Shown here: piece by piece, positions 64 through 64,000 of the stretch
Layout of the letters: each line of letters begins with the position of its first letter
Numbering within the stretch: the stretch's first letter is position 1
Assembly: GCF_006716815.1 (NCBI RefSeq)
Contig: NZ_VFPS01000003.1
Location: 248,001-312,000 of the forward strand
Reading direction: 5' to 3'
DNA length: 64,000 nucleotides
Source: Microbacterium lacticum
GTDB taxonomy: Bacteria > Actinomycetota > Actinomycetes > Actinomycetales > Microbacteriaceae
The notes under the pieces: generated by a model
Database searches by the model: none
Seen by the model: only the letters and a program-made list of their open reading frames with translations
What the model was told of the DNA's origin: nothing
Program-made: the position numbers and the translations under genes

Positions 64-2517
64 ATGACCCCCACACCGGCACCCCCCGCGTGGGCGCACC
101 GCACCACTGATGCCACCGTCGAGCAGTTGGCGGCGGTGGATGCGTGGTGGCGGGCGGCGAACTATCTGAGCATCGGCCAGATCTACCTGCAGGGTAACCC
201 GCTGCTGCGCCACCGCCTCAGCCGGGACGATATCAAGCCGCGGCTGCTGGGCCATTGGGGCACCACCCCGGGCCTGAACTTCCTCTACGCCCACCTGAAC
301 CGTGCCATCCGCGACCGCGACCTGAACACCCTGTACGTGACCGGGCCCGGGCACGGCGGACCCGGCATGGTCGCCAACGCCTACCTGGACGGCACCTACA
401 CCGAACGCTACCCGGGCATCGACCGCACCGAAGAGGGGCTGCGGGCGTTGTTCCGGCAGTTCTCCTTCCCCGGCGGGATCCCCTCGCACGCGTCCCCGGA
501 GACGCCGGGGTCGATCAACGAGGGCGGCGAGCTCGGCTACTCCCTGGTGCACGCCTACGGGGCGGCGTTCGACAACCCGGATCTGCTGGTCGCCTGTGTG
601 ATCGGCGACGGGGAGGCGGAGACCGGGCCGTTGGCGACCGCGTGGCACGGCAACAAGTTCCTCAACCCCGCCGCGGACGGGGTGGTGCTGCCGATCCTGC
701 ACCTGAACGGGTACAAGATCGCCAACCCGACGGTGCTGTCCCGCATCCCCGAGGACGAGCTGGTCGCGCTGCTGCGCGGCTACGGCCACGAGCCGTTCGT
801 GGTCACCGTCGGCTTCGACGGCGAGGACCCGCGGGAGCCCCACGCCCGGTTCGCCGGCGTGCTGGACGAGGTGCTGGACCGGATCGCGGACATCAAGACC
901 GCCGCGGCGGCCGGCACCCTGGAGGGCCGGCCGGCGTGGCCGGCGATCGTGCTGCGCAGCCCGAAAGGCTGGACCTGCCCGCCGGTGATCGACGGGCTCC
1001 CCGTGGAGGGCACCTGGCGGTCCCACCAGGTGCCGCTCGCCGAGGTCCGCGACAATCCCGAGCACCTGCGGATCCTCGAGGACTGGCTGGCGTCCTACCG
1101 CCCGCACGAGCTGTTCGACGTGATCGGCGCCCCACGCCCGACCACGGTCGCGATCGCCCCGGACGGGGATCGGCGGATGAGCGCGAACCCGGCCGGCAAC
1201 GGCGGACAACTCACCGTCCCGCTGCGGCTCCCGGACTTCCGCGAGCACGCCCACCCCGTCGACCCCGCCGCGCGCGGGGCGTCGACCGGCGAAGCGACCC
1301 GGACATTGGGGGATTGGCTGGCGGGGGTGATCCGGGACAACCCGGACAACTTCCGCATCTTCGGCCCGGACGAGACCGCCTCCAACCGACTCGCCCCACC
1401 CGTCTACCAGGCCACCGGCAAGCAGTGGAACGCGGCCGTGGAGCCCGTCGACGAGCACCTGGCCCCGACCGGGCGGGTGATGGAGGTGCTCAGCGAGCAC
1501 CAGTGCCAGGGCTGGCTCGAGGGCTACGTCCTGACCGGCCGACACGGCCTGTTCAACTGCTACGAGGCATTCACCCACATCGTCGACTCGATGTTCAACC
1601 AGCACGCCAAATGGCTCGAAGCGGCCCGGGAGGTGTCGTGGCGGGACCCGATCCCGAGCTTCAACTACCTGCTCTCCAGCCACGTCTGGCGGCAGGACCA
1701 CAACGGGTTCTCCCACCAGGACCCCGGGTTCATCGACCTCGCCCTGAACAAGAGCCCCGACATCGTCCGCGTCTACCTCCCGTTCGACGCGAACACACTG
1801 CTGTCCACCTACGACCACTGCCTCCGCTCCACCGGGTACCTCAACGTCGTCGTCGCCGGGAAGCAGCCCGCCCCGCAGTGGCTCACGATGGACGAGGCGA
1901 TCGAGCACTGCACCCGCGGGCTGGGCATCCTGCCGTGGGCGGGCACCGAAACCGAAGGCACCGAGCCGGATGTGGTGCTCGCCGCCGCCGGCGACGTCCC
2001 CACCCTCGAGACCCTCGCGGCGGCGGCGCTGCTGCGCGAGCACGTCCCCGACCTGAGAGTGCGGGTGGTGAACGTAGTCGACCTGACCCGGCTGCAATCC
2101 GAGGACCAGCACCCGCACGGGCTGCCGGACCGGGAGTTCGATGCGATCTTCACCCCCGACAAGCCGGTGATCTTCGCCTACCACGGCTACCCGTGGCTGA
2201 TCCACCGACTCACCTACAACCGCGCCGGACACCAGAACCTGCACGTGCACGGCTTCCAGGAGCGCGGCACCACCACGACCCCGTTCGACATGGTCATGCT
2301 CAACGACCTCGACCGGTACCGGCTGGCGATCGACGTCCTCGACCACGTCCCGGGCCTCGCCGCCCGCCACGCGGAGCTGCGGCAGGAGCTGCAGGACGCC
2401 CGCCTGCATGCCCGCGCCCACACCCGTGAGCACGGCACCGACATCCCCGCCGTCGCCGACTGGCACTGGCCCCACCCCGACACCACCGACCCCGCCATCG
2501 GGAAGGAACCGAAATGA
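64..2517 (+). CDS. xfp: Phosphoketolase (xylulose-5-P/fructose-6-P type)
   Basis: This 817-residue protein is a thiamine-diphosphate enzyme that cleaves xylulose 5-phosphate (and in many members fructose 6-phosphate) to acetyl phosphate plus a triose or tetrose phosphate in the cytosol. The length matches the family (about 790-825). Hallmarks are the N-terminal phrase [15 protein letters not shown], the block [17 protein letters not shown] near residue 95, the ThDP-site motif [20 protein letters not shown] near 180, and the C-terminal [17 protein letters not shown]. The ATG at 64 follows a strong ribosome binding site. Its stop overlaps the next gene by 4 bases (ATGA), so it is translationally linked to a copper-type ATPase and a multicopper oxidase, an odd pairing for a carbon-metabolism enzyme. 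No acetate kinase is visible beside it; it could lie left of the window. Confidence 0.95.
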
Positions 2518-5135
2518 GTGACACCAGAACCGTGACCCTGCAGGTCAGCGGCATGATCCGCGCGACCTCCAAGAACGTCACCGAAGCCCACCTGGGCCGA
2601 CAACCCGGGGTGATCGCCGTGGACGCGAACCCGGTCTCGCAGACCGCGACCGTCACCTACGACCCCGAGACCACCTCGGTAGCGCACCTGCAGCAGTGGG
2701 TCATCGACTGCGGGTATCACTGCGCCGGCCAGTCCGTCCCCGACCATATCTGCGACCCCGCGCACGTCCCGCACGACGAGGGTGCGCACGACCACAGCGC
2801 CCACCACGGCCCCGCAGCTGAGGGCGCACAAGAACCGCACGCGAGTCACGACGCGCACGAGGGCCACACGGATGCCACGGGTCACGCCAGCCACGCGGGC
2901 CATGAGGGTCCTGCGGGCTATCACGACGACCCCGTCCACGATCACGCCGCTGGCCACGACCACACGCACGCCCCGTCGGCGACGGCGGATGACGGTGAGC
3001 AAGCCGGTCACCACGTCGAGCACGCCGGTCACACCGCGGCCGCGGGTGGGCACGATCATGGTGCAGCGTCGGGTCACAGTGCGCAGGAGATGATGGGCCA
3101 CGGTGGGCACCACGGCGGGATGTCGATGGACGCGATGATCCGCGACATGCGCAACCGGTTCCTGGTCACGCTGATCCTGTCGATCCCGATCACCCTATGG
3201 TCTCCGATCGGGCGGGAGGTGATCGGATTCGAGGTGCCGGCCCCGTTCGGGCTGCGCGATGACGTGTTCATGCTGATCCTGTCGCTGCCGGTGATCTTCT
3301 ACTCCGCGTGGATCTTCTTCGACGGCGCCTACCGGGCGCTGCGCGCGAAGACCCTCGACATGATGGTGCTCGTCGCGGTCGGAGTCGGCGCCGGCTGGCT
3401 GTACTCCCTCGCGGTCACCCTCACCGGCGGCGGTGAAGTGTTCTACGAAGCCGCCACGGTGCTTGCCACCTTCGTGCTGCTGGGGCATTGGGTGGAGATG
3501 CGCGCCCGCGGCGGCGCGAACGACGCCATCCGCACCCTGCTGGAGCTCGCGCCCTCGCAGGCGGTCGTGATCCGTGACGGGCAGGAGGTCGAGATCCCCA
3601 CCAGCGAGGTCGTCCCGGGGGATCTGATGCTGGTGCGGCCGGGGGCGAAGATCCCCACCGACGGTGTCGTGGAATCCGGAGAGTCCGAGGTGGACGAGTC
3701 GATGGTCACCGGCGAGTCCATGCCGGTGGACAAAGCGCCCGGGTCGGAGGTGATCGGAGCGACCGTGAACACCGTCGGCACCCTCCGCGTCACAGCCACC
3801 AAAGTCGGGTCGGACACGGCGTTGGCGCAGATCGTGAAGCTCGTGCAGGAGGCGCAGAACTCCAAAGCCCCCGGGCAGCGCCTCGCTGACCGGGCAGCGT
3901 TCTGGCTGGTCCTGGTCGCCCTGATCGGCGGCACCCTCACCTTCCTGGTGTGGCTGCTCGCCGGCGCTGCGGTGCCGATGGCGATCCTGTTCGCCATCAC
4001 CGTCGTCGTCATCACCTGCCCCGACGCCCTCGGATTGGCGACGCCGACCGCGATCATGGTCGGCACCGGGCTCGGTGCCAAGCGCGGTGTGTTGTTCAAG
4101 AACGCCGCCGGGATCGAAACCGCCGCCCGCATCGACACGGTCGTGTTCGACAAGACCGGCACCCTCACCAAGGGGGAGCCGGAGGTCACCGACTACATCC
4201 CCGTCGGCGGCGACGACCTCGAGACCCTCTCCCTCGCGGTCGCGTTGGAGCGGGAATCCGAGCATCCTCTGGCGAAAGCGATCGTGAATTACGCCGACGC
4301 CCGCGGCATCCCCCGTCGCACCGCGACCGCGTTCCGAAACGTCACCGGGCAGGGCGCGATCGCCACCGTCGACGGTCGACAGGTCGTCCTCGGCAACCCG
4401 CGCCTTCTCACCGGGGAGGGGATCGACATCAGCGGGGTGCAGGCCGCTCAGCAGGACCTGGCTGGGTCCGGCCGCACCGCGATCCTGTTCGCCGTGGACG
4501 GGCAAGTCGCCGGGATCATCGGTCTCGCCGACGCGCCCCGGGACACCGCAAAGACCGCGATCGACGCTCTCCACGAGCAGGGCGTCGAGGTCGCGATGCT
4601 CACCGGGGACAACAAGCCCACCGCCGACCGGATCGCCGCTCTCCTCGGCATCGACACCGTGATCGCGGATGTGCTCCCCGAGGACAAGTCCGCGAAGGTC
4701 GCCGAGCTGCAGAAGACGGGCAAGAAGGTCGCGATGGTCGGCGACGGCGTCAACGACGCCCCCGCCCTCGCCCAGGCCGACCTCGGCATCGCGATCGGCG
4801 CCGGCACCGACGTCGCCATCGAGACCGCCGACGTGGTCCTGATGCGCTCGGACCCGCTCGATGTTGCGATCGCACTCAAGATCGGCAAGGGCACACTGCG
4901 AAAGATGCGGCAGAACCTGGGCTGGGCCATCGGATACAACGCCGCCGCCCTCCCCATCGCCGCCGGCGTGTTCTACCCGGCGTTCGGGATCATGCTGTCC
5001 CCGGAGATCGCCGCCCTGTCGATGTCCGGTTCCTCCGTGATCGTCGCCGTCAACGCCCTCCTCCTCAAGCGGCTCCGCCTGCCCGCCCAGGCGCCCGCTG
5101 CGACGACCATGCAGGAGGAGCCCGAACATGCCTGA
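2514..5135 (+). CDS. Copper-type P1B ATPase with His-rich N-terminus and CPD motif
   Basis: This 873-residue heavy-metal ATPase probably exports copper from the cytosol. Residues 1-75 look like a heavy-metal-associated fold, but the usual GMTCxxC loop reads GMIRATS, so the canonical ligands are missing (a CGYHC lies later). Residues about 80-205 form a linker with roughly 30 histidines, as in CopB-like pumps. Core motifs are present: TGES in the actuator domain, DKTGTLT (phosphorylated Asp), the HP dipeptide in SEHPLA, and [10 protein letters not shown]. The transmembrane metal motif reads CPD instead of CPC or CPH. Late membrane motifs are GYNAAALP and MSGSS. The gene overlaps its neighbours by 4 and 8 bases, so all three form one operon with the multicopper oxidase. 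Copper as substrate is inferred from this context; the CPD variant leaves Cu(I) versus Cu(II) open. Confidence 0.88.
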
Positions 5136-55169: not shown

Positions 55170-55306
55170 CGTGGAGCCCCCAACCCTCGTGCCTCGCGAG
55201 CCTAGCCGACCGCCGTTGTGGACGAGTTCGCGCTGTCGCGGCATACTGTGAGCGGGGATAGGCGGCGCACGTCTTGGGGATGACGCGCCGCCGAGGGGGA
55301 TATTCG

Positions 55307-56293
55307 ATGACGGAGAACTCGTCGACCGCGCCGATCGGCGCCGGTCAAGACGGAGGCCGCCCGCGGGTGGTGATGCCCGTGCACAACGCGGCGACCTACG
55401 TGCGCGAGGCGATCACGAGCGTGCTCGACGACCTGCCCGCGGGCGGAGAGCTCGTCATCGTCGACGACGGTTCGACGGACGGCTCCGGTGAGTTCGCGCG
55501 GGCTTACGCGCTGCGGGATGCGCGCGTGACGGTGATCCGTCACGACAGCCCCGTGGGGGTCTCGCGTGCACTGAATGCCGGAATCAAACACGCCGGATGC
55601 CCCGACTTCGTCGCCGTCGCCGAGCACGACGATGTGGTGGTCCGAGGCGGGTTCTCCGCGCATGTCGACGCCCTGCGTGCCGACGCCGGACTGGGAGCGG
55701 TCTCCGGGGAGGGGCGGTACCTCGGCCCGAGCGGACGCGTGGCTGGTCGAGTGGCGGTGGGCCCGTCGTCGCGACGGGAGTTCGAGGAGCTTCGCGAGGC
55801 TGGACGCGAGATTCTGATTCCGCACCCCGCGATCACCTACCGACGCGATGCGGTCGTCGACTCGGGTCTCTACGACGCAGCGTTCGACGCCGCGCAAGAC
55901 CTCGAACTCATCAATCGGATGGTCTACGAGCACGGTTGGGAGGTGCGTCTGCTGCCCGGACCCCACGTCCTGTACCGGATCCATGGCTCATCGATGTCCT
56001 TCTCGCACATCGAAGGACAACGAATGATGACCCGATACATGGTCTACCGCAACGCGGCCCAGCTCGCGGGCGAACCCTTCACGGACTACCAACAGTGGCG
56101 ACGCGACAACGTCCCCGATCGACGCACCCGGTGGCGGTGGTACCGCAAGGACACCGGCGCCTTGAAGTTTCGTCAAGCCGGCTTGGCATGGTTGAACCGC
56201 CGACCGTTCGCCCTCGTCGGCAATCTCGCGGCGGCATCCGTTCTCCACCCGAAATGGGTGCTCATGAAGCTGCGAGTCGTTCGTGGACGGTGA
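55307..56293 (+). CDS. GT2-family glycosyltransferase
   Basis: This 328-residue GT-A enzyme starts VVMPVHNAATYVREAITSVL, has the nucleotide-binding VIVDDGSTDGSGEFA and the acidic metal site AEHDD near residue 103, then HPAITYRRDAVVDSGLYD as acceptor-side region. A basic C-terminus (RRTRWRWYRKDTG, PKWVLMKLRVVRGR) is likely amphipathic and may touch the membrane. ATG at 55307 has GAGGGGGA six bases upstream. It overlaps the next gene by 11 bases and heads a five-gene operon. Confidence 0.9.
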   Translation: MTENSSTAPIGAGQDGGRPRVVMPVHNAATYVREAITSVLDDLPAGGELVIVDDGSTDGSGEFARAYALRDARVTVIRHDSPVGVSRALNAGIKHAGCPDFVAVAEHDDVVVRGGFSAHVDALRADAGLGAVSGEGRYLGPSGRVAGRVAVGPSSRREFEELREAGREILIPHPAITYRRDAVVDSGLYDAAFDAAQDLELINRMVYEHGWEVRLLPGPHVLYRIHGSSMSFSHIEGQRMMTRYMVYRNAAQLAGEPFTDYQQWRRDNVPDRRTRWRWYRKDTGALKFRQAGLAWLNRRPFALVGNLAAASVLHPKWVLMKLRVVRGR

Positions 56294-57320
56294 AGGTCTG
56301 CAGGCCGTGGCTCCCATGGCCGCGCCGGCGCGGGACGACGATCTGGCGGTGATGATCGCCGTGCCCACCCTGCGCCGTCCGCGCGAGCTGGCTCGGCTGC
56401 TCGACCGTCTGCCTGCCACGATCGAGGCCGCGATCGAGCAGGGCTCGTGTGCACGCGTCGACGTGGTGGTCATCGACAACGACCCATCGGGGTCCGCGGC
56501 GGACGTCGTGCGATCGGCGTCACTGCCGGTGCGGTACGCCCCCGAGCCGCAGCCGGGGCTCTCGGTTGTGCGTAACCGGGCACTGGATGAGAGTGCGTGC
56601 CACGACATGCTCGTGTTCATCGACGACGATGAGACCCCGGCTGCCGAGGGGTGGCTCGCGCGGTTGCTCGACACGCAACGTGTGACGGGGGCGGGGGTCG
56701 TCGCCGGCCCGGTGCGCACCGTCATCGAGGGAGAGTGGGATCCCTGGATCGTGGCGGGTGGCTTTTACGCGCGCGCACACCGCTCGGGCTTGCAGACCCG
56801 AGACCGGATCGCCGGCGCCGCGACGAACAATCTGCTGCTCGACGTGGCGGCGGTCCGCCGTGCGGGTGTGCGATTCGATTCACGCTTCGGAGCCACAGGG
56901 GGAGAGGATTCGTTCTTCACCGCGCAGTTGGGCGCCGCGGGCGTGGAGATGGTGTGGTGCGCGGACGCGATCGTGGAAGATCACCTCCTCTCCGCGCGTC
57001 AGACACGCGCTCACGCTCTCGTCAGGAGTCGTGGCATGGCCGCCGCCGGAGTGCGTGTCTCACTGGCGCTCGCCGAGGGAGCACCCGCGCGGCGCGCCCG
57101 CGTGCGGGCGCGTGGTCTGTGCGCCGCTTTGATGCGCATCGCCGTGGGGTCGGCGCGGGGTCTTGGCGCCCGGGTGAGCGGATCGACCCGCCTCGACGCA
57201 ATCGGGGCGCGAGACATCGCACGAGGTGTCGGGCAGTTGGAAGGGGTCATCGGCCGCAATCGCGCGCTCTATGGACTCGACGTCGGCGGGGCGCCCGCCG
57301 TCCGGGAGGAGACATCATGA
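56283..57320 (+). CDS. GT2-family glycosyltransferase
   Basis: This 345-residue GT-A enzyme has VMIAVPTLRRPRELARLLDR at the start, VVVIDNDPSGSAAD as the nucleotide site, FIDDDETPAAEGWL as the metal-binding DxD region, and TGGEDSFFTAQLGAAG as the likely catalytic ED motif. The C-terminal 90 residues are Ala/Arg-rich helices. It begins at a GTG 11 bases inside the preceding gene and overlaps the phosphatidyltransferase gene by four bases (ATGA). Donor and acceptor are unknown. Confidence 0.88.
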   Translation: MDGEGLQAVAPMAAPARDDDLAVMIAVPTLRRPRELARLLDRLPATIEAAIEQGSCARVDVVVIDNDPSGSAADVVRSASLPVRYAPEPQPGLSVVRNRALDESACHDMLVFIDDDETPAAEGWLARLLDTQRVTGAGVVAGPVRTVIEGEWDPWIVAGGFYARAHRSGLQTRDRIAGAATNNLLLDVAAVRRAGVRFDSRFGATGGEDSFFTAQLGAAGVEMVWCADAIVEDHLLSARQTRAHALVRSRGMAAAGVRVSLALAEGAPARRARVRARGLCAALMRIAVGSARGLGARVSGSTRLDAIGARDIARGVGQLEGVIGRNRALYGLDVGGAPAVREETS

Positions 57321-58057
57321 CGACCGTCCGTGGGGCGCGGCCAGGGCTGGAAGAGACGCTCGGCCGCCTGCGTGCAGCGCAGAAGGGGCACGCTCGCGGA
57401 GCACCCGCCTACTCCGTATACGTCAATCGCCGAATCGGTCGGCTCCTGGCCGCTTTCGCCTTCCGTGCGGGGTTGTCGCCTAACCAGGTGACCGCGCTCA
57501 GCGCGCTGCACACCTTCGCCGGCATCGCGCTCATCGCGACTGTGCCGAACGACCCCTGGGTCGGTTTCGCGGCTGCTGCGCTTCTCGCGCTCGGCTACGC
57601 CTGGGACTCGGCTGACGGACAGGTGGCACGGCTCTCCGGCGGCGGGAGCATTGCCGGAGAGTGGCTCGACCACTTCGTCGACGCGATCAAGATATCCACG
57701 CTCCATCTCGCCGTCGCGATCGGGTTGTATCGCTTCGCGCCGGAGATTCCGCGAGTGTGGCTACTGGTTCCGCTCGCCTTCTCGGCGGTGGCGACGACCA
57801 CCTTCTTCGGCATGCTCTTGAACGATCTGCTCAAGGGGGCGCGCGGAGTGCCGTCGACCCACGCGCGCGGCGGCGGCACGTTCACCCGGTCGATGATGCT
57901 CCTCCCCACCGACTTCGGCGTCGTGTGCCTCGTGTTCGTCCTCTGGGGCGCCCCGATTCTCTTCTTGTGGGCGTACGGCACGTTGTTCGTGTTCGCTGCG
58001 TTGTTCCTCGTGGCCGCGGCCGCGAAGTGGTTCCGTGAGATGCAGCGTGTCGGCTGA
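57317..58057 (+). CDS. CDP-alcohol phosphatidyltransferase
   Basis: This 246-residue membrane enzyme has the full CDP-OH signature D-x2-DG-x2-AR-x8-G-x3-D-x3-D, visible from WDSADGQVARLSGGG through GEWLDHFVDAIK (about residues 95-121), and six hydrophobic segments. It transfers a phospho-alcohol from a CDP-alcohol (or CMP to a phospho-sugar alcohol) to or from a lipid. Lying inside a glycosyltransferase operon, it more likely builds a phospho-polyol or phosphoinositol-type surface glycolipid than housekeeping phospholipid. Confidence 0.9.
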   Translation: MTTVRGARPGLEETLGRLRAAQKGHARGAPAYSVYVNRRIGRLLAAFAFRAGLSPNQVTALSALHTFAGIALIATVPNDPWVGFAAAALLALGYAWDSADGQVARLSGGGSIAGEWLDHFVDAIKISTLHLAVAIGLYRFAPEIPRVWLLVPLAFSAVATTTFFGMLLNDLLKGARGVPSTHARGGGTFTRSMMLLPTDFGVVCLVFVLWGAPILFLWAYGTLFVFAALFLVAAAAKWFREMQRVG

Positions 58058-59021
58058 GGGTGGGCGGCGGCCGCTGGCGATCGTCGCCGTCAACTACGGA
58101 TCGTCTGGCCTGCTCGAGCGGAACCTCGTTCGCAGTGCGGCGCGCGCAGCCCCCGCATCCGTCGTCGTGGTCGACAATCCGACATCGTCGGAGGAACGAA
58201 CTCGAGTGCAGGCGCTGGCCGCCGAGCACGGCTGGCTTCTGGTCGAGCCCGAGGAGAACCTCGGGTTCGGCGGTGGCGCTAACGCGGGTGCGCAACGCGC
58301 GATCGACGCAGGCGCGCGAGATCTGCTTCTCCTCAACCCGGACGCCACCCTCGGCGAGGGGTGCGTGCCGCTCCTGCGCGCGGCCGATCCGATGCACGAC
58401 GCCGTATGTGCTCCACAGATCGTGACCAGCGGCGGCGCGGTCTGGTTCGACGGAGCCGACCTGTACTTGGACGACGGCATCACGCGCGGACGCGCCAAAC
58501 GCCGGCAGTACCCCGCATCCGAGCGGTGGGAGTGGCTCACGGGTGCGTGTCTATGGGTCCCGGTGGAGATCTGGACCGCAACCGGCGGGTTCGATCCCGA
58601 GTATTTTTTGTATTGGGAGGACGTCGATTTCTCGCGCCGCGTCGTGGAGGCGGGCGGGATGCTCCGGGTGGTCTCCGCGGCGCGGGCGGTCCATGACGAA
58701 GGCGGCACCCAAGGGCGAGCGGCCGACGACCGGACGAAATCCGAGATGTACTACTACTTCAACATCCGCAACCGGATGCTGTTCGCCACCCAGCACCTCG
58801 GGCAGTCGGGCGTGCGACGGTGGGCTCGCACGGCAGGGGCATCTGCCCGCGAGATCCTCCTGCGCGGTGGCCGGCGGCAGTTCTTGTTCTCGCTGGCGCC
58901 GTGGCGCGGGGGTTTCCGCGGGCTCCGCGACGCCCGGCGCATTGCCAGACGAAATCGGATCGAGCCGCGGGCCTATGATGTCCGCGCGGCAGAGGGGGAG
59001 GTCGCTCATGACCAGCGATGA
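58047..59021 (+). CDS. GT2-family glycosyltransferase (rhamnosyltransferase-like)
   Basis: This protein of about 324 residues has IVAVNYGSSGLLERNLV, VVVVDNPTSSEE, then ENLGFGGGANAGAQRAIDAG and LLLNPDATLGEG, the pattern of WbbL-like rhamnosyltransferases. ALYWEDVDFSRR-type motif appears as FLYWEDVDFSRRVVEAGG near 185, followed by FNIRNRMLFATQHLG. The GTG at 58047 is preferred; one at 58035 is possible. It overlaps both neighbours. The region 58605-58625 includes a local run TTTTT unusual for this DNA but within the conserved YFLYW codons. Confidence 0.88.
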   Translation: MSAEGGRRPLAIVAVNYGSSGLLERNLVRSAARAAPASVVVVDNPTSSEERTRVQALAAEHGWLLVEPEENLGFGGGANAGAQRAIDAGARDLLLLNPDATLGEGCVPLLRAADPMHDAVCAPQIVTSGGAVWFDGADLYLDDGITRGRAKRRQYPASERWEWLTGACLWVPVEIWTATGGFDPEYFLYWEDVDFSRRVVEAGGMLRVVSAARAVHDEGGTQGRAADDRTKSEMYYYFNIRNRMLFATQHLGQSGVRRWARTAGASAREILLRGGRRQFLFSLAPWRGGFRGLRDARRIARRNRIEPRAYDVRAAEGEVAHDQR

Positions 59022-59802: not shown

Positions 59803-62800
59803 GTGTCGACTATTTCGATGACGCGTCGCGCCTTTGCATCTGTTGTTGTGGGGGCAACGATCGTCGCGTCGATCGTGCTCGTTCCATCGATCGCGAACGC
59901 GGCGCCGGCGTCGCCGGCCGATCCGCCGTTGCCGGACACGGTGACCGCCGATGCACTGCCCACACTCCAGCTCGACAACGGGGTGGTGTGGACACAGACC
60001 ATCGTGGGAAACACCGTCTACGCGGCGGGCCAGTTCTCCAACGTGCGCCCGGCGGGAGCGGCAGCGGGGCAGGATCTCACCGACCGCGGCAACATCGTCG
60101 CCTACAACCTCACCACGGGTGAGCTGGTGACCTCGTTCTCGCCCTCGTTCAACAACCGCATCAACGAGGTCGTGGCCTCGCCCGATGGCACCAAGCTCTA
60201 CGTGACCGGGTCGTTCACGCAGGTGAACGGACAGAACCGCACTCGTTTCGCGGTGATCGATCTGACGACCGGCGCGCTCCTTCCCGGAACGGTGAGCCTG
60301 AACAACATCGGTAAGTCGGTCTACGCGACCTCTGACGGGGTTTACGTCGGCGGATACTTCACGGCCGTGGGGACGGCGCAGCGGATGCGGGTGGCCAAGC
60401 TGAACGCCGCGGGAACGGCGGTGCTGCCGTTCTCGGTGCCCGTCGACAACGGGCAGGTGCAGAGCATCGTCGCCGACCCCTCGGGAACTCAGGTCGTGAT
60501 CTCCGGAAACTTCACCACCGTCGGCGGCGGCGACAACCCCGGTTACGGTCTGTACCGCGCCGATGGCCAGTCCGGTGTCGGCCTCCCGCTGGGCGTCAAC
60601 AGCGAGATCCGCAACGCCGGCGAGAACTCGGGCGTCATGGCGCTCGCCACGGATGGCACGAAGTTCTACGGAGTGGGCTGGCACTACGGAGCGGGCGGAA
60701 ACCTCGAGGGGTCGTTCGCGGGGAGCTGGGCAGACGGGTCGCGTGTGTGGATCGAGGACTGCCACGGCGACACCTACGACATCGCGATCGGAGGACAGGT
60801 CGCCTACTCCGCCAGCCACAAGCACTACTGCGGCAACAGCGGGGGCTTCCCGCAGACCGACCCATGGAGCTTCAACCACGCGACCGCGTGGTCGACGGAC
60901 GTGCGCGGAGTCAACACCGCCGACATCTACGGATACCCCGACCACCCCGGCACGCCCCGTCCGCAGCTCCTGAACTGGTACCCGCAGACCACGCCGGGCA
61001 CGTTCACCGGTCAATCGCAGGCAGTATGGTCCGTTGCCGCGAATGACAAGTACGTCGTCTACGGTGGCGAATTCCCCAGCGTCAACGGCACGCGCCAGTA
61101 CGGGCTCGTGCGGTTCACCGTGCGCTCGCAGGCGCCGAACAAGCAGGGTCCGCGGCTGTCAGGGACAAACTGGGATCCGTCGGTCATCTCGTTCTCGGCC
61201 GGCGCGGTGCGCCTCTCGTACCAGACGAACTGGGACCGAGACGACTACTCCCTGACGTACCGGGTGTATCGCGATTCCGAATCGTCTGCTCCCATCTCGG
61301 AGAGCACGCTCGGCGCGCCGTTCTGGAAGCCCACGACGCAGATCGTGAACGACCAGGGTCTCGCGCCGGGCAGCACCCATCGATATCGTGTGACGGCGAC
61401 CGACCCCTCGGGCAATGTGGCGAAGTCGTCGTGGATCACAGTCGTCGTGTCGAGTCAGGCCGCGTCTCCCTACGTCGACGCGGTTCTGAACGATGGTGCC
61501 GCCAACTACTGGCGGCTGGGCGAGCCGACCGGAACGGCCGTCAACGACTGGGCGGGCTCCGACACGCTGACGCTGAGCGGTGACTACGCACGGGGCGCAG
61601 CCGGCGCCATCGCCGGCGATGCGAACGCGTCCACGACGTTCACCGGCGGATACGCCGGTGCATCCACCGCTCAGCAGGCGCCGGACACCTTCGCCGTCGA
61701 AGCATGGTTCAAGACGACGACACCCACCGGCGGAAAGATCGTCGGATTCGGCAACGGCACGACCGGGCAGTCGAGCACCTACGACCGTCACGTCTACATG
61801 GACGACTCCGGTCGGGTCTGGTTCGGCGTGTACCCGGGCGGCGTGCGCACCGTCAACAGCTCGGGCAGCTACAACGACGGCCAATGGCACCACGTCGTCG
61901 CAAACCTCGGTTCTGGCGGCATGAGCCTCTACATCGACGGCAAGCGTGTCGGCCAGCGGGCCGACGTCACGAGCGCGCAGAGCTATTCCGGCTTCTGGCG
62001 CATCGGCGAAGACAACCTGTCCGGGTGGCCGAGCTCCCCCTCGACGTCCAGCTTCAGAGGCGACGTCGATGACGTGGCCGTGTACTCGTCACCGCTGAGC
62101 GCGGCGCAGGCGCGAGCTCACTATGCCGCAGGCGGCGGCACGGTCGTCAACGTGACACCACCCAGCGATGCGTACGGCGCTCTCGTGTTCAACTCCGACC
62201 CTGAGTTCTACTGGCGATTCGATGAGGCAGGCGGCGCCACGGCAGTGGACTCCTCAGCTCAGCAGGTTTCCGGGGTATTCTCCGGAGACTACGTTCGCGG
62301 TTCGGCGGGGGCACTGCCGGGTGGCGTGGGCTCTGCGCTAACCTTCCGCAAGACCACATGCGACTGGTGGCAGCTAGGGTGCACCTCGACCAACGGCGGG
62401 TCGATCGCCACGTCCGTCTCGTACACGAACCCGACGTCGTACTCGGTCGAGACCTGGTTCAAGACGACCTCGACGCAGGGGGGTCGTCTCGTCGGGTTCA
62501 GCAGCAACCAGACCGGCGACTCGAGCAGCTACGATCGTCACGTCTACATGCAAGACGACGGCAAGCTCGTCTTCGGTACGTGGACGGGGCAGACGAACAC
62601 GATCATGACCCCGCAGGCCTACAACGATGGCCAGTGGCACTATGTGGCCGCGACGCAGGGGTCGGATGGGATGAGGTTGTACGTCGACGGGGTCGCGCAG
62701 GGCACGAACCCCCAGACCGCTGCCCAGGACTACACCGGATACTGGCGGATCGGCGGCGATACGACGTGGGGCTCGAGCTCCTCGAACCTGATCGCGACGT

Positions 62801-64000
62801 TCGACGAGACGGCGGTATACGGCCGAGTGCTCACGCCTGCCGAGATCGGCGCCCACTACGGTGTCGGCAAAGGTCAGGCGCTTCCCAACCAGGCGCCGGT
62901 CGCCTCGTTCGAAGCATCCGTGGCCGACCTCACGGTCGCCGTCGACGCGGGCGCGTCGATCGATTCCGACGGGACGATCGCCTCGTACGCGTGGGATTTC
63001 GGCGACGCGCAGATCGGTGCAGGTAAGACGGCCGGCCACGTCTATGCGTACCCTGGCACGTACACCGTGACGCTGACCGTCACCGATGACGACGGCGCGA
63101 CGGCGACGACGACGCGGCAGGTGGAGGCGGTCGCACCCAACGCAGCGCCGACTGCGGCGTTCACGACGAGCGCCAATGGCCTCGCGTTCGCCGTCGACGG
63201 TGCCGGCTCGTCCGATGGGGACGGCACGATCGCGTCCTACGCCTGGACGTTCGGCGACGGTGGTTCGGCTACCGGTGCGACGGCGTCGCACACCTACACC
63301 ACGGGCGGAACATATGTCGTCACCCTCACGGTCACCGACGACGACGGAGCGACGAACGCGGCGACGCAGTTTGTGACGGTGACGCCGGCGAATGTGGTTC
63401 CGGTGGCGTCGTTTGTGTCGGTGGTGGATCGGTTGGCGGTGTCGGTTGATGGTTCGGGGTCGTCGGATCCGGATGGCACGGTGGTGTCGTTCGGGTGGGA
63501 TTTCGGTGACGGTGTGACTGCGACCGGTGCGACGGCGTCGCACACGTATGGTGCTCCGGGGACGTATGCGGTGACGTTGACGGTGACGGATGATCGTGGG
63601 GCGACCGCGACGCAGACGTCGCAGGTGGCGGTGGCGGATACGCCGGCACCGGCGGGGCCGTTGTTCGCGGATGCGTTCGGTCGGCTGTTGGCGTCGGGTT
63701 GGGGTTCGGCGGATGCCGGGGGTGCGTGGACGTTGCGTACTGGGGCCACGCGGTTCTCGGTCGGTGACGGGGTCGGTAAGGCTGTGTTGCCGGGTGCGTC
63801 GACGGTCAATGCCGACACCCCGGTGATCAACAGTGTGTCGACGCGGTTCTCGGCGACGTTCTCGGTCGACAAGATCAACGACGCGATGTATGTCGGCGCG
63901 ATCACGCGTCGGGTCGGCGACGACCAGTACACGGTGCGGGTGCGGGTGGCTGCAGATGGTTCTGCGCGGTTGCACGTGTTGCGCGGTGCGAGCACGGCTG
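59803..64000 (+). CDS. Giant secreted multidomain protein (propeller-LamG-PKD), 3' end outside window
   Basis: An open frame of at least 1399 residues runs from the GTG at 59803 to the window edge. Residues 1-34 are a signal peptide with a twin-arginine-like MTRRAFA and an ANA-AP cleavage site. Residues about 45-440 form repeats like VVASPDGTKLYVTGSFTQVN, as in delta-60/beta-propeller proteins. About 450-545 is Fn3-like. Two LamG/concanavalin domains follow (about 556-780 and 790-1020; YWRLGEPTG and YWRFDEAGG, each with YDRHVYM and YNDGQWH). Three PKD domains (about 1030-1280; WDFGD, WTFGDGG, WDFGDGV) precede another jelly-roll-like domain. LamG and PKD modules bind carbohydrates or act as spacers. 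It follows the surface-glycan operon and may bind or decorate the same surface. No cell-wall anchor is visible because the end is missing. Confidence 0.88.
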   Translation, partial: MSTISMTRRAFASVVVGATIVASIVLVPSIANAAPASPADPPLPDTVTADALPTLQLDNGVVWTQTIVGNTVYAAGQFSNVRPAGAAAGQDLTDRGNIVAYNLTTGELVTSFSPSFNNRINEVVASPDGTKLYVTGSFTQVNGQNRTRFAVIDLTTGALLPGTVSLNNIGKSVYATSDGVYVGGYFTAVGTAQRMRVAKLNAAGTAVLPFSVPVDNGQVQSIVADPSGTQVVISGNFTTVGGGDNPGYGLYRADGQSGVGLPLGVNSEIRNAGENSGVMALATDGTKFYGVGWHYGAGGNLEGSFAGSWADGSRVWIEDCHGDTYDIAIGGQVAYSASHKHYCGNSGGFPQTDPWSFNHATAWSTDVRGVNTADIYGYPDHPGTPRPQLLNWYPQTTPGTFTGQSQAVWSVAANDKYVVYGGEFPSVNGTRQYGLVRFTVRSQAPNKQGPRLSGTNWDPSVISFSAGAVRLSYQTNWDRDDYSLTYRVYRDSESSAPISESTLGAPFWKPTTQIVNDQGLAPGSTHRYRVTATDPSGNVAKSSWITVVVSSQAASPYVDAVLNDGAANYWRLGEPTGTAVNDWAGSDTLTLSGDYARGAAGAIAGDANASTTFTGGYAGASTAQQAPDTFAVEAWFKTTTPTGGKIVGFGNGTTGQSSTYDRHVYMDDSGRVWFGVYPGGVRTVNSSGSYNDGQWHHVVANLGSGGMSLYIDGKRVGQRADVTSAQSYSGFWRIGEDNLSGWPSSPSTSSFRGDVDDVAVYSSPLSAAQARAHYAAGGGTVVNVTPPSDAYGALVFNSDPEFYWRFDEAGGATAVDSSAQQVSGVFSGDYVRGSAGALPGGVGSALTFRKTTCDWWQLGCTSTNGGSIATSVSYTNPTSYSVETWFKTTSTQGGRLVGFSSNQTGDSSSYDRHVYMQDDGKLVFGTWTGQTNTIMTPQAYNDGQWHYVAATQGSDGMRLYVDGVAQGTNPQTAAQDYTGYWRIGGDTTWGSSSSNLIATFDETAVYGRVLTPAEIGAHYGVGKGQALPNQAPVASFEASVADLTVAVDAGASIDSDGTIASYAWDFGDAQIGAGKTAGHVYAYPGTYTVTLTVTDDDGATATTTRQVEAVAPNAAPTAAFTTSANGLAFAVDGAGSSDGDGTIASYAWTFGDGGSATGATASHTYTTGGTYVVTLTVTDDDGATNAATQFVTVTPANVVPVASFVSVVDRLAVSVDGSGSSDPDGTVVSFGWDFGDGVTATGATASHTYGAPGTYAVTLTVTDDRGATATQTSQVAVADTPAPAGPLFADAFGRLLASGWGSADAGGAWTLRTGATRFSVGDGVGKAVLPGASTVNADTPVINSVSTRFSATFSVDKINDAMYVGAITRRVGDDQYTVRVRVAADGSARLHVLRGASTA

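Follow-up and report, generated by a model that had tools for sequence, protein, structure and literature searches.

The abrupt change of codon usage inside a giant secreted-protein gene of Microbacterium lacticum is best read as the 5' edge of a C-terminal module that is kept identical by recombination, in an array that evolves in concert. The analysed window is a stretch of 64,000 nucleotides, and positions beyond its end are given in the same numbering. When the giant gene is shifted by 1,176 bp against itself, an unbroken run of 2,062 identical bases is found from 63,383, corresponding to 2.75 identical tandem copies of a 392-codon unit (63,383-66,620), which end ten bases short of the end of the stop codon. 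The codon switch sits at the 5' edge of this array and reappears in every copy with an exact period of 1,176 bp, going on and off in each of them, as the entire unit recurs with no mismatch. In its own genome, no copy of the unit was found outside the giant gene except for a 30-bp match, all seven matches being intragenic. In related genes, the odd codon style is found mostly where the module is identical to another copy, suggesting that the choice of silent codons is linked to DNA recombination.

The Giant Gene and Its Codon Switch

The giant gene is a single open frame that runs past the end of the window to 66,630 (contig position 314630). Its product starts with a signal-peptide-like N-terminus, followed by a propeller-like region, two Laminin_G_3 stretches and two PKD domains, and its C-terminal part is built of PKD, a domain of about 200 amino acids and PKD in repeats, the last element being the ~200-aa domain (Table 1). 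The second Laminin_G_3 stretch lies after the one in the table. PKD_4 matches three stretches in the part of the gene inside the window, and the PKD matches clear the Pfam gathering score (PF18911, 205.8 bits against 27; PF00801, 130.1 against 23.5). The ~200-aa domain gave no confident Pfam match, nor did any PDB sequence match it at E 0.01. For its homologue in L060, a beta-sandwich is predicted from an alignment of 40 sequences with a mean pLDDT of 96.9, and the best Foldseek match of this predicted domain is the carbohydrate-binding module CBM66 (E 8.6e-7, TM 0.56/0.67), followed by ConA-like lectins and glucanases. Judging from this predicted fold, the giant protein is likely to be a sugar-binding surface protein. 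Directly upstream (55274-59021), the ORFs appear glycosyltransferase-like and CDP-alcohol transferase-like, as judged by eye from their translations, so that the giant protein may neighbour a cell-surface polysaccharide cluster.

Table 1. Features of the giant gene inside the window (C3, share of codons with third base C)
Feature	Position	Strand	Remarks
Giant secreted surface protein gene, 2,275 aa	59803..64000	+	Open frame; PKD, Laminin_G_3 and DUF5122 propeller matches
First Laminin_G_3 domain	61648..62109	+	PF13385, two stretches, best aa 616-769
Two PKD domains before the array, host-like codons	62890..63381	+	Limits by eye; C3 0.35-0.55
GT-codon island, codons 1186-1310	63358..63732	+	C3 0.083 in codons 1191-1310
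First copy of the exact 1,176-bp unit	63383..64000	+	Unit end 64,558; array end 66,620
PKD opening each repeat unit, GT codons	63383..63640	+	Approximate limits; PKD_4 best aa 1206-1277, unit aa 12-83
Start of the ~200-aa beta-sandwich domain (aa 1287-1488, cut by the window)	63661..64000	+	Profile limits; predicted fold of a homologue

The switch itself, as originally predicted, is real: C3 falls from about 50% to 8% across 120 codons, the lowest value among 3,670 windows of 120 codons in the genome background being 0.21. This background comprised 400 kb of the same genome, taken as 20 stretches of 20 kb with 295 called ORFs, in which only 4 of 9,550 windows of 40 codons had a C3 below 0.15. 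For the other called genes inside the window, 36 in number, the 40-codon C3 has a mean of 0.516 (sd 0.100, minimum 0.20; 1,439 overlapping windows), compared with 0.05-0.15 across most of the island. At the switch, the GC skew passes from about 0 to +0.34 with a similar GC content. The boundary, first placed at about 63370, has its onset at about 63,358, roughly 25 bp before the exact repeat begins at 63,383, the final C-ending codon before it being AAC at codon 1185 (63,355-63,357); the low-C style also covers linkers just beyond the identical tract. Across codons 1191-1310, Val, Ala, Thr, Ser, Gly, Asp and Pro are mostly encoded by GTG, GCG, ACG, TCG, GGT/GGG, GAT and CCG. The dominance of GTG, GCG, TCG, GGT and GAT had been noted before, together with TTT, which does not belong to the pattern, as Phe is read from TTC four times and from TTT once in these codons, with TTT used twice at the onset. 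Moreover, the style does not last to 64,000, as had been supposed, since C3 partly recovers from about 63,760 (0.20-0.43 in 40-codon windows), host-like codon use returning gradually across the ~200-aa domain and the next PKD while the GT bias within the ~200-aa domain fades toward its 3' end. Along the full gene, several switches are found, as in the case of random switching against which the original prediction had been set, yet they are exactly periodic.

C-ending codons are also few among the first 40 codons of the giant gene (59803-59922; 9 of 40), and N-terminal low-C runs occur as well in family genes of G002, G012, G021, G023, G098, G115 and G249; as expected, such runs are normal at the starts of secreted-protein genes.

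Association between Low C and Identical Copies

Family genes were found by a profile of the N-terminal propeller, which at E 1e-30 detected relatives in 66 of the 247 genomes from the same genus. The analysed set comprised 111 family genes from 67 genomes, including G062 from another family of the order, retrieved by DNA search; the matches left out include second genes of G051, G139, G144 and G262, as well as G039:C2, G023:C179 and two of G249:C25. Genes were divided into bins of 40 codons, excluding the first 120 or 200 codons of each, as N-termini are often low in C, and repeats were detected by in-frame diagonals, megablast having missed those of G036 and G047.

Of the 52 low bins (C3 < 0.2), 42 belong to segments for which the same genome has another copy with an identity of 95% or more; such segments make up only 146 of 3,976 bins. 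The share of low bins is 0.2% below an identity of 0.7, 0.3% at 0.7-0.8, zero at 0.8-0.9, 3.6% at 0.9-0.95 and 28.8% above, with odds ratios of 76-318 across thresholds of 0.15-0.30 for C3 and 0.90-0.99 for identity. After removing M. lacticum (G000), 32 of 42 low bins are still repeated. When the repeat mask was rotated within genes in 2,000 trials, at most 35 low bins were covered and none of the trials reached the 42 observed. Counted by genome, low bins occur in 10 of 13 with repeats versus 1 of 54 without them; counted by gene (n = 111), 12 are repeated and low, 3 repeated only, 10 low only and 86 neither, these numbers being 12, 3, 5 and 84 for complete genes. In 12 independent pairs taken from the tree, a mean of 6.4 point in the same direction and none in the opposite one (median p 0.03, range 0.016-0.063). 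The ten remaining low bins belong to G118 (five, in a gapped repeat), G021 (two, beside a repeat), G182 (two, with copies at 0.90-0.91 identity) and G169 (one, at a contig end).

Most relatives have diverged modules with host codons. Across the 84 adjacent module pairs, identity is all-or-none, as 6 pairs in five genes are 100% identical and the other 78 reach at most 83% (median 59%); it does not increase as C3 falls (Spearman +0.22, p 0.05, and +0.03), and among the five genes, L084 and L087 are rich in C and not in G. Repeats without low C are present in the family genes of G154, G181 and G249 and, within a survey of named genomes in which 80 loci were kept, in L044, L053, L065, L084, L087, L092 and L123. 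The same survey revealed low-C, high-G stretches together with exact repeats in Arthrobacter sp. H14-L1 (L048), Actinotalea sp. K2 (L052) and Arthrobacter terrae (L080). No repeat was detected with such stretches of A. echini (L051, 43 codons) or of Microbacterium sp. GCS4 (L121), where the stretch is close to the end of a contig. The low-C stretches of L107, L094 and L099 are not rich in G. Outside the family, a test of low power (12 of 7,388 bins repeated) was made on 1,101 called ORFs, 225 of them of the family, with some loci overlapping and 20 Big_3_5 stretches added; three non-family ORFs had at least 60 repeated codons, none being low-C and two being C-rich, and none of the 12 low bins in non-family ORFs was repeated.

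In G021 and G218, a low-C 3'-terminal module is common, at 95% identity or more, to two genes lying close together, and in these genomes and G182 the copies sit in separate genes. The close-lying genes at L029 and L173 have in common a 3'-terminal module of 160-211 codons (identity 95% or more) and differ in much of the remainder, a pattern that reads as exchange between paralogues. At L139, L160, L161, L183 and L184 (G119, G169 and G234), contigs stop within or close to low-C modules, as would be seen if the draft assemblies had been broken by identical modules.

Orthologues, Sister Species and the Search for a Donor

The closest orthologues found, from G118 and G200, carry a low-C module in the same place with 66-73% protein identity. 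These two genes, the nearest in the gene tree, share the switch; the next two, from G015 and G271, do not, so that the style extends to some orthologues only. G015 and G271 have two PKD-plus-200-aa modules each, 388-389 codons apart and written in host codons. Between these species, the first copy matches the first (0.82 at the amino acid level) and the second matches the second (0.79), while the two copies within one genome are only 0.50-0.53 identical in amino acids and 0.60-0.63 in nucleotides. The second copies of G015 and G271 form a group with the six modules that were read in G000, G118 and G200 (support 100/98). Within G000 (three copies) and G200 (two copies), the nucleotide identity is 100%, exceeding the 0.71-0.75 found between the modules of G000, G118 and G200. 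Thus, the host-codon copies drifted apart and the GT-codon copies stayed alike. Independent recent duplications, in place of concerted evolution, keep some probability as the source of the identical copies, but they are countered by the equal unit length, the spacing being 392 codons in both G000 and G200. With this spacing and that of 388-389 codons in G015 and G271, the duplication may predate the species split; overwriting hides the history of the individual copies. The orthologue of G118 (L138) shows an apparent frame change close to the 3' end, and its second copy of the module runs into a stretch of N.

At silent sites, the match of third positions at shared fourfold codons was compared with that expected if they were independent. 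For the low-C PKD, the observed match was 0.56 (0.53 expected) between G000 and G200, 0.59 (0.49) between G118 and G200 and 0.76 (0.59) between G000 and G118; for the next domain, in the same order, 0.59 (0.40), 0.51 (0.47) and 0.55 (0.47); and for the propeller, 0.42 (0.36), 0.46 (0.38) and 0.46 (0.39). Silent sites are therefore widely diverged while C is still rare, suggesting that the style is being maintained, an argument that is weakened because the PKD of G000-G118 and the next domain of G000-G200 lie above the expectation. The gene tree requires at least 14 changes of state between low-C and not, a rough count, as this FastTree phylogeny carried long-branch warnings and used a profile-matched span that goes beyond the propeller in some rows; the tree of the ~200-aa domain has 9 low rows in 239 and 5 changes.

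No identical module DNA was met in another genome, the best-scoring match outside the giant gene among 98 genomes, its own included, being only 75% over 363 bp. Among plasmids, nothing close was found (four partial matches of 60-80%), and no genome was found to have the GT style as its own genome-wide habit. A phage origin of the module was rejected, as no phage DNA match was found and the unit protein, compared with 50,697 phage records, matched a single record at 39% identity. Consequently, the original prediction holds in seeing a recombination boundary in a repeat-containing surface protein, as the exact repeat begins there and modules are shared between genes of G021 and G218, and loses ground in proposing a recent acquisition from elsewhere, given the lack of a close donor and the style shared by G118 and G200 despite wide divergence.

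Direction of the Bias and DNA Composition

The GT bias has a direction. In ten GT-rich within-gene tracts, the G/T third-position excess, corrected for amino acids, falls by quarter of the tract from 0.39 to 0.35, 0.28 and 0.12, the first quarter exceeding the last in 10 of 10, and is about 0.1 in the 60 codons upstream. It is flat in the controls, namely 324 non-repeated PKD domains and 204 non-repeated PKD-plus-200-aa modules (first above last in 85). In 15 repeated modules from nine genes, the copies of which are not independent, it goes from 0.28 to 0.01; L092 and L221 have no 5'-to-3' fall. The low-complexity repeat L049 was omitted from the gradient and skew tests, and the pooled tests count a few Microbacterium control genes twice, as a named locus and under a G handle.

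Four loci, L084, L087, L109 and L206, have exactly repeated tracts of opposite skew, C-rich or AC-rich and poor in G, with AC-richness strongest at the 3' side and the 5' side nearer to host use; the coding repeat of L109 lies at 1853-5002 on the minus strand. They are possibly the mirror image predicted by a strand-based mechanism, although four cases prove nothing. A purely strand-blind mechanism would predict an excess of opposite skew, and none was found, since a minimum below -0.5 occurs in 2 of 24 repeat-bearing genes versus the non-repeated parts of 52 of 190.

Regarding the DNA itself, low windows contain 67% G+T versus 47% in others, and folding energies per nucleotide are weaker on both strands (-0.173 versus -0.223 and -0.123 versus -0.221). 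TGG, GTG and GGT are about threefold enriched, TGG reaching 42 versus 15 per kb. Some candidate causes were rejected: GC-biased gene conversion, because GC3 falls (0.77 versus 0.89 in other windows) where a rise is expected; G-quadruplexes, because windows of 120 nt, 49 of them low and 2,322 others, contained no G4 motif; and mRNA openness as the sole cause, because the energy of the sense RNA is alike (-0.404 versus -0.411 per nucleotide in low and other windows). G-runs amount to 28 per kb, below the 48 expected from shuffling, and no Chi octamer was found.

Proposed Mechanism and Rival Explanations

The reading placed first, to which we give close to an even chance, is that of a concertedly evolving array in which GT-rich DNA favours recombination. 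The modules would be homogenised by gene conversion or unequal exchange, and the low-C GT codons would be a lasting property of modules under homogenisation and not the relic of a foreign donor. The silent choice of G and T would make the sense strand about 68% G+T and leave both single strands weakly self-pairing, the type of DNA where RecA filaments are presumably most stable; such filaments could let the modules pair and convert more often, giving identical copies of changeable number. If conversion were primed at the island and proceeded 5' to 3' along the GT strand, both the position of the island at the 5' edge and its 3' fade would be explained. As described in PMC3763553, RecA dissociates most slowly from TGG repeats, its nucleation is not enhanced by TG-rich DNA, and GT-rich coding DNA was discussed earlier as preferred pairing DNA. 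RecA pairing as the cause, and the direction of causation, are what we infer from these elements.

Causation could run in the other direction, which comes second and is unlikely: conversion or single-strand exposure, combined with strand-biased mutation or repair, would turn silent C into G or T. This would predict the same association and the same gradient, and G3 and T3 both rise in low windows while C3 and A3 pay for it. However, second positions keep their C (0.413 versus 0.408 in other windows), so the change is confined to silent sites; the drop in GC3 is opposite to GC-biased conversion, and low-C linkers lie outside the identical tract. Next comes translational selection, in which folding or secretion would benefit from slow or unstructured codons where identical adjoining domains begin. 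The style does start at the 5' edge of the module and then fades, the first codons are low-C in several family genes, and 38 of 49 low windows fold less than recodings in host codons; this explanation is nonetheless improbable, as the sense RNA energies are alike where the DNA strands clearly differ, and copies sitting in separate genes (G021, G218 and G182) are not neighbours in one protein.

We regard as still less probable the import of donor-style modules that entered recently and were then duplicated, their youth accounting for both style and identity. It would fit the sharp edge of the switch, the 70-85% DNA identity of low-C modules from different species over PKD stretches and the two silent-site comparisons above expectation (G000-G118 for the PKD, G000-G200 for the next domain). 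Against it, no close donor appeared among the 98 genomes, the plasmids and the phages, none of the genomes found had the GT style as its own, three related species have the module in the same place, where it forms one clade with the second copies found in the host-codon sisters, and the gene tree counts its repeated changes of state. Last, an artefact of assembly or sampling seems very improbable: draft contigs do end near low-C modules (G119, G169 and G234), the second copy of G118 meets its N run, and yet the pattern is present in the single-contig genomes G021, G137, G218 and G231, and the genomes, except G062, were drawn by an N-terminal bait, the association outlasting the removal of G000.

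Comparison with Known Systems

The vls system of Borrelia may be regarded by analogy as the closest precedent of a codon-biased recombining array. According to PMC3585125 and PMC11499132, vls has a coding-strand G bias against the host codon habit, proposed to serve gene conversion, and PMC3828179 describes gene conversion and concerted evolution between strains. The coding-strand GC skew is 0.52 in vls by the former two accounts and 0.35 versus -0.02 here, and G-runs of about 27 per kb of coding strand compare with 28 here, versus 1 on the other strand. Unlike vls, the giant gene has no silent cassettes or separate expression site, its unit matches all being intragenic; its copies are identical and not diversified, as seen in one genome per species; its G-runs fall below the shuffled expectation with no G4 motif found; and its style is GT-based rather than mainly G-based. 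Among other surface proteins with repeats that rearrange, the SD-repeat adhesins of staphylococci (PMC3324548) bear short low-complexity repeats, in contrast to the whole-domain units of 392 codons found here. Secreted actinobacterial proteins with PKD, Laminin_G_3 and propeller regions possess the same domains, most of these relatives having diverged modules in host codons. GT-rich 'islands of preferred DNA pairing' for RecA/Rad51 around Chi have reportedly been described in papers of Tracy and Kowalczykowski, Colbert, and Biaudet. The present island resembles them in its GT-rich strand enriched in TGG, GTG and GGT and made by codon choice; unlike them, it goes against host codon usage instead of following general usage, occurs only in homogenised modules within a single gene and lacks a Chi octamer. 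In titles and abstract openings, drawn mostly from outside the subscription literature, no account of the association between low C and identical repeats was recognised outside vls.

Significance

Intragenic codon islands are usually taken as foreign DNA, and here the island marks homogenised repeats. Detection of horizontal transfer based on codon switches can therefore misread such arrays, and draft assemblies can break there. The sister comparison, the repeated gains and the directional gradient point to a link at the DNA level between silent codons and recombination, and an old question, whether GT-rich coding strands matter for RecA or are mere codon usage, becomes testable by recoding.

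More tentatively, silent codons may act as a DNA-level recombination signal, in which GT islands gained repeatedly make modules preferred recombination partners that copy themselves along the GT strand. If true, a mirror form with an AC-rich coding strand, a GT-rich opposite strand and its island at the other edge may exist, with L084, L087, L109 and L206 as candidates. Under the signal reading, the modules would represent a within-genome drive, overwriting their neighbours, through which giant surface proteins would gain arrays of identical domains of fast-changing number.
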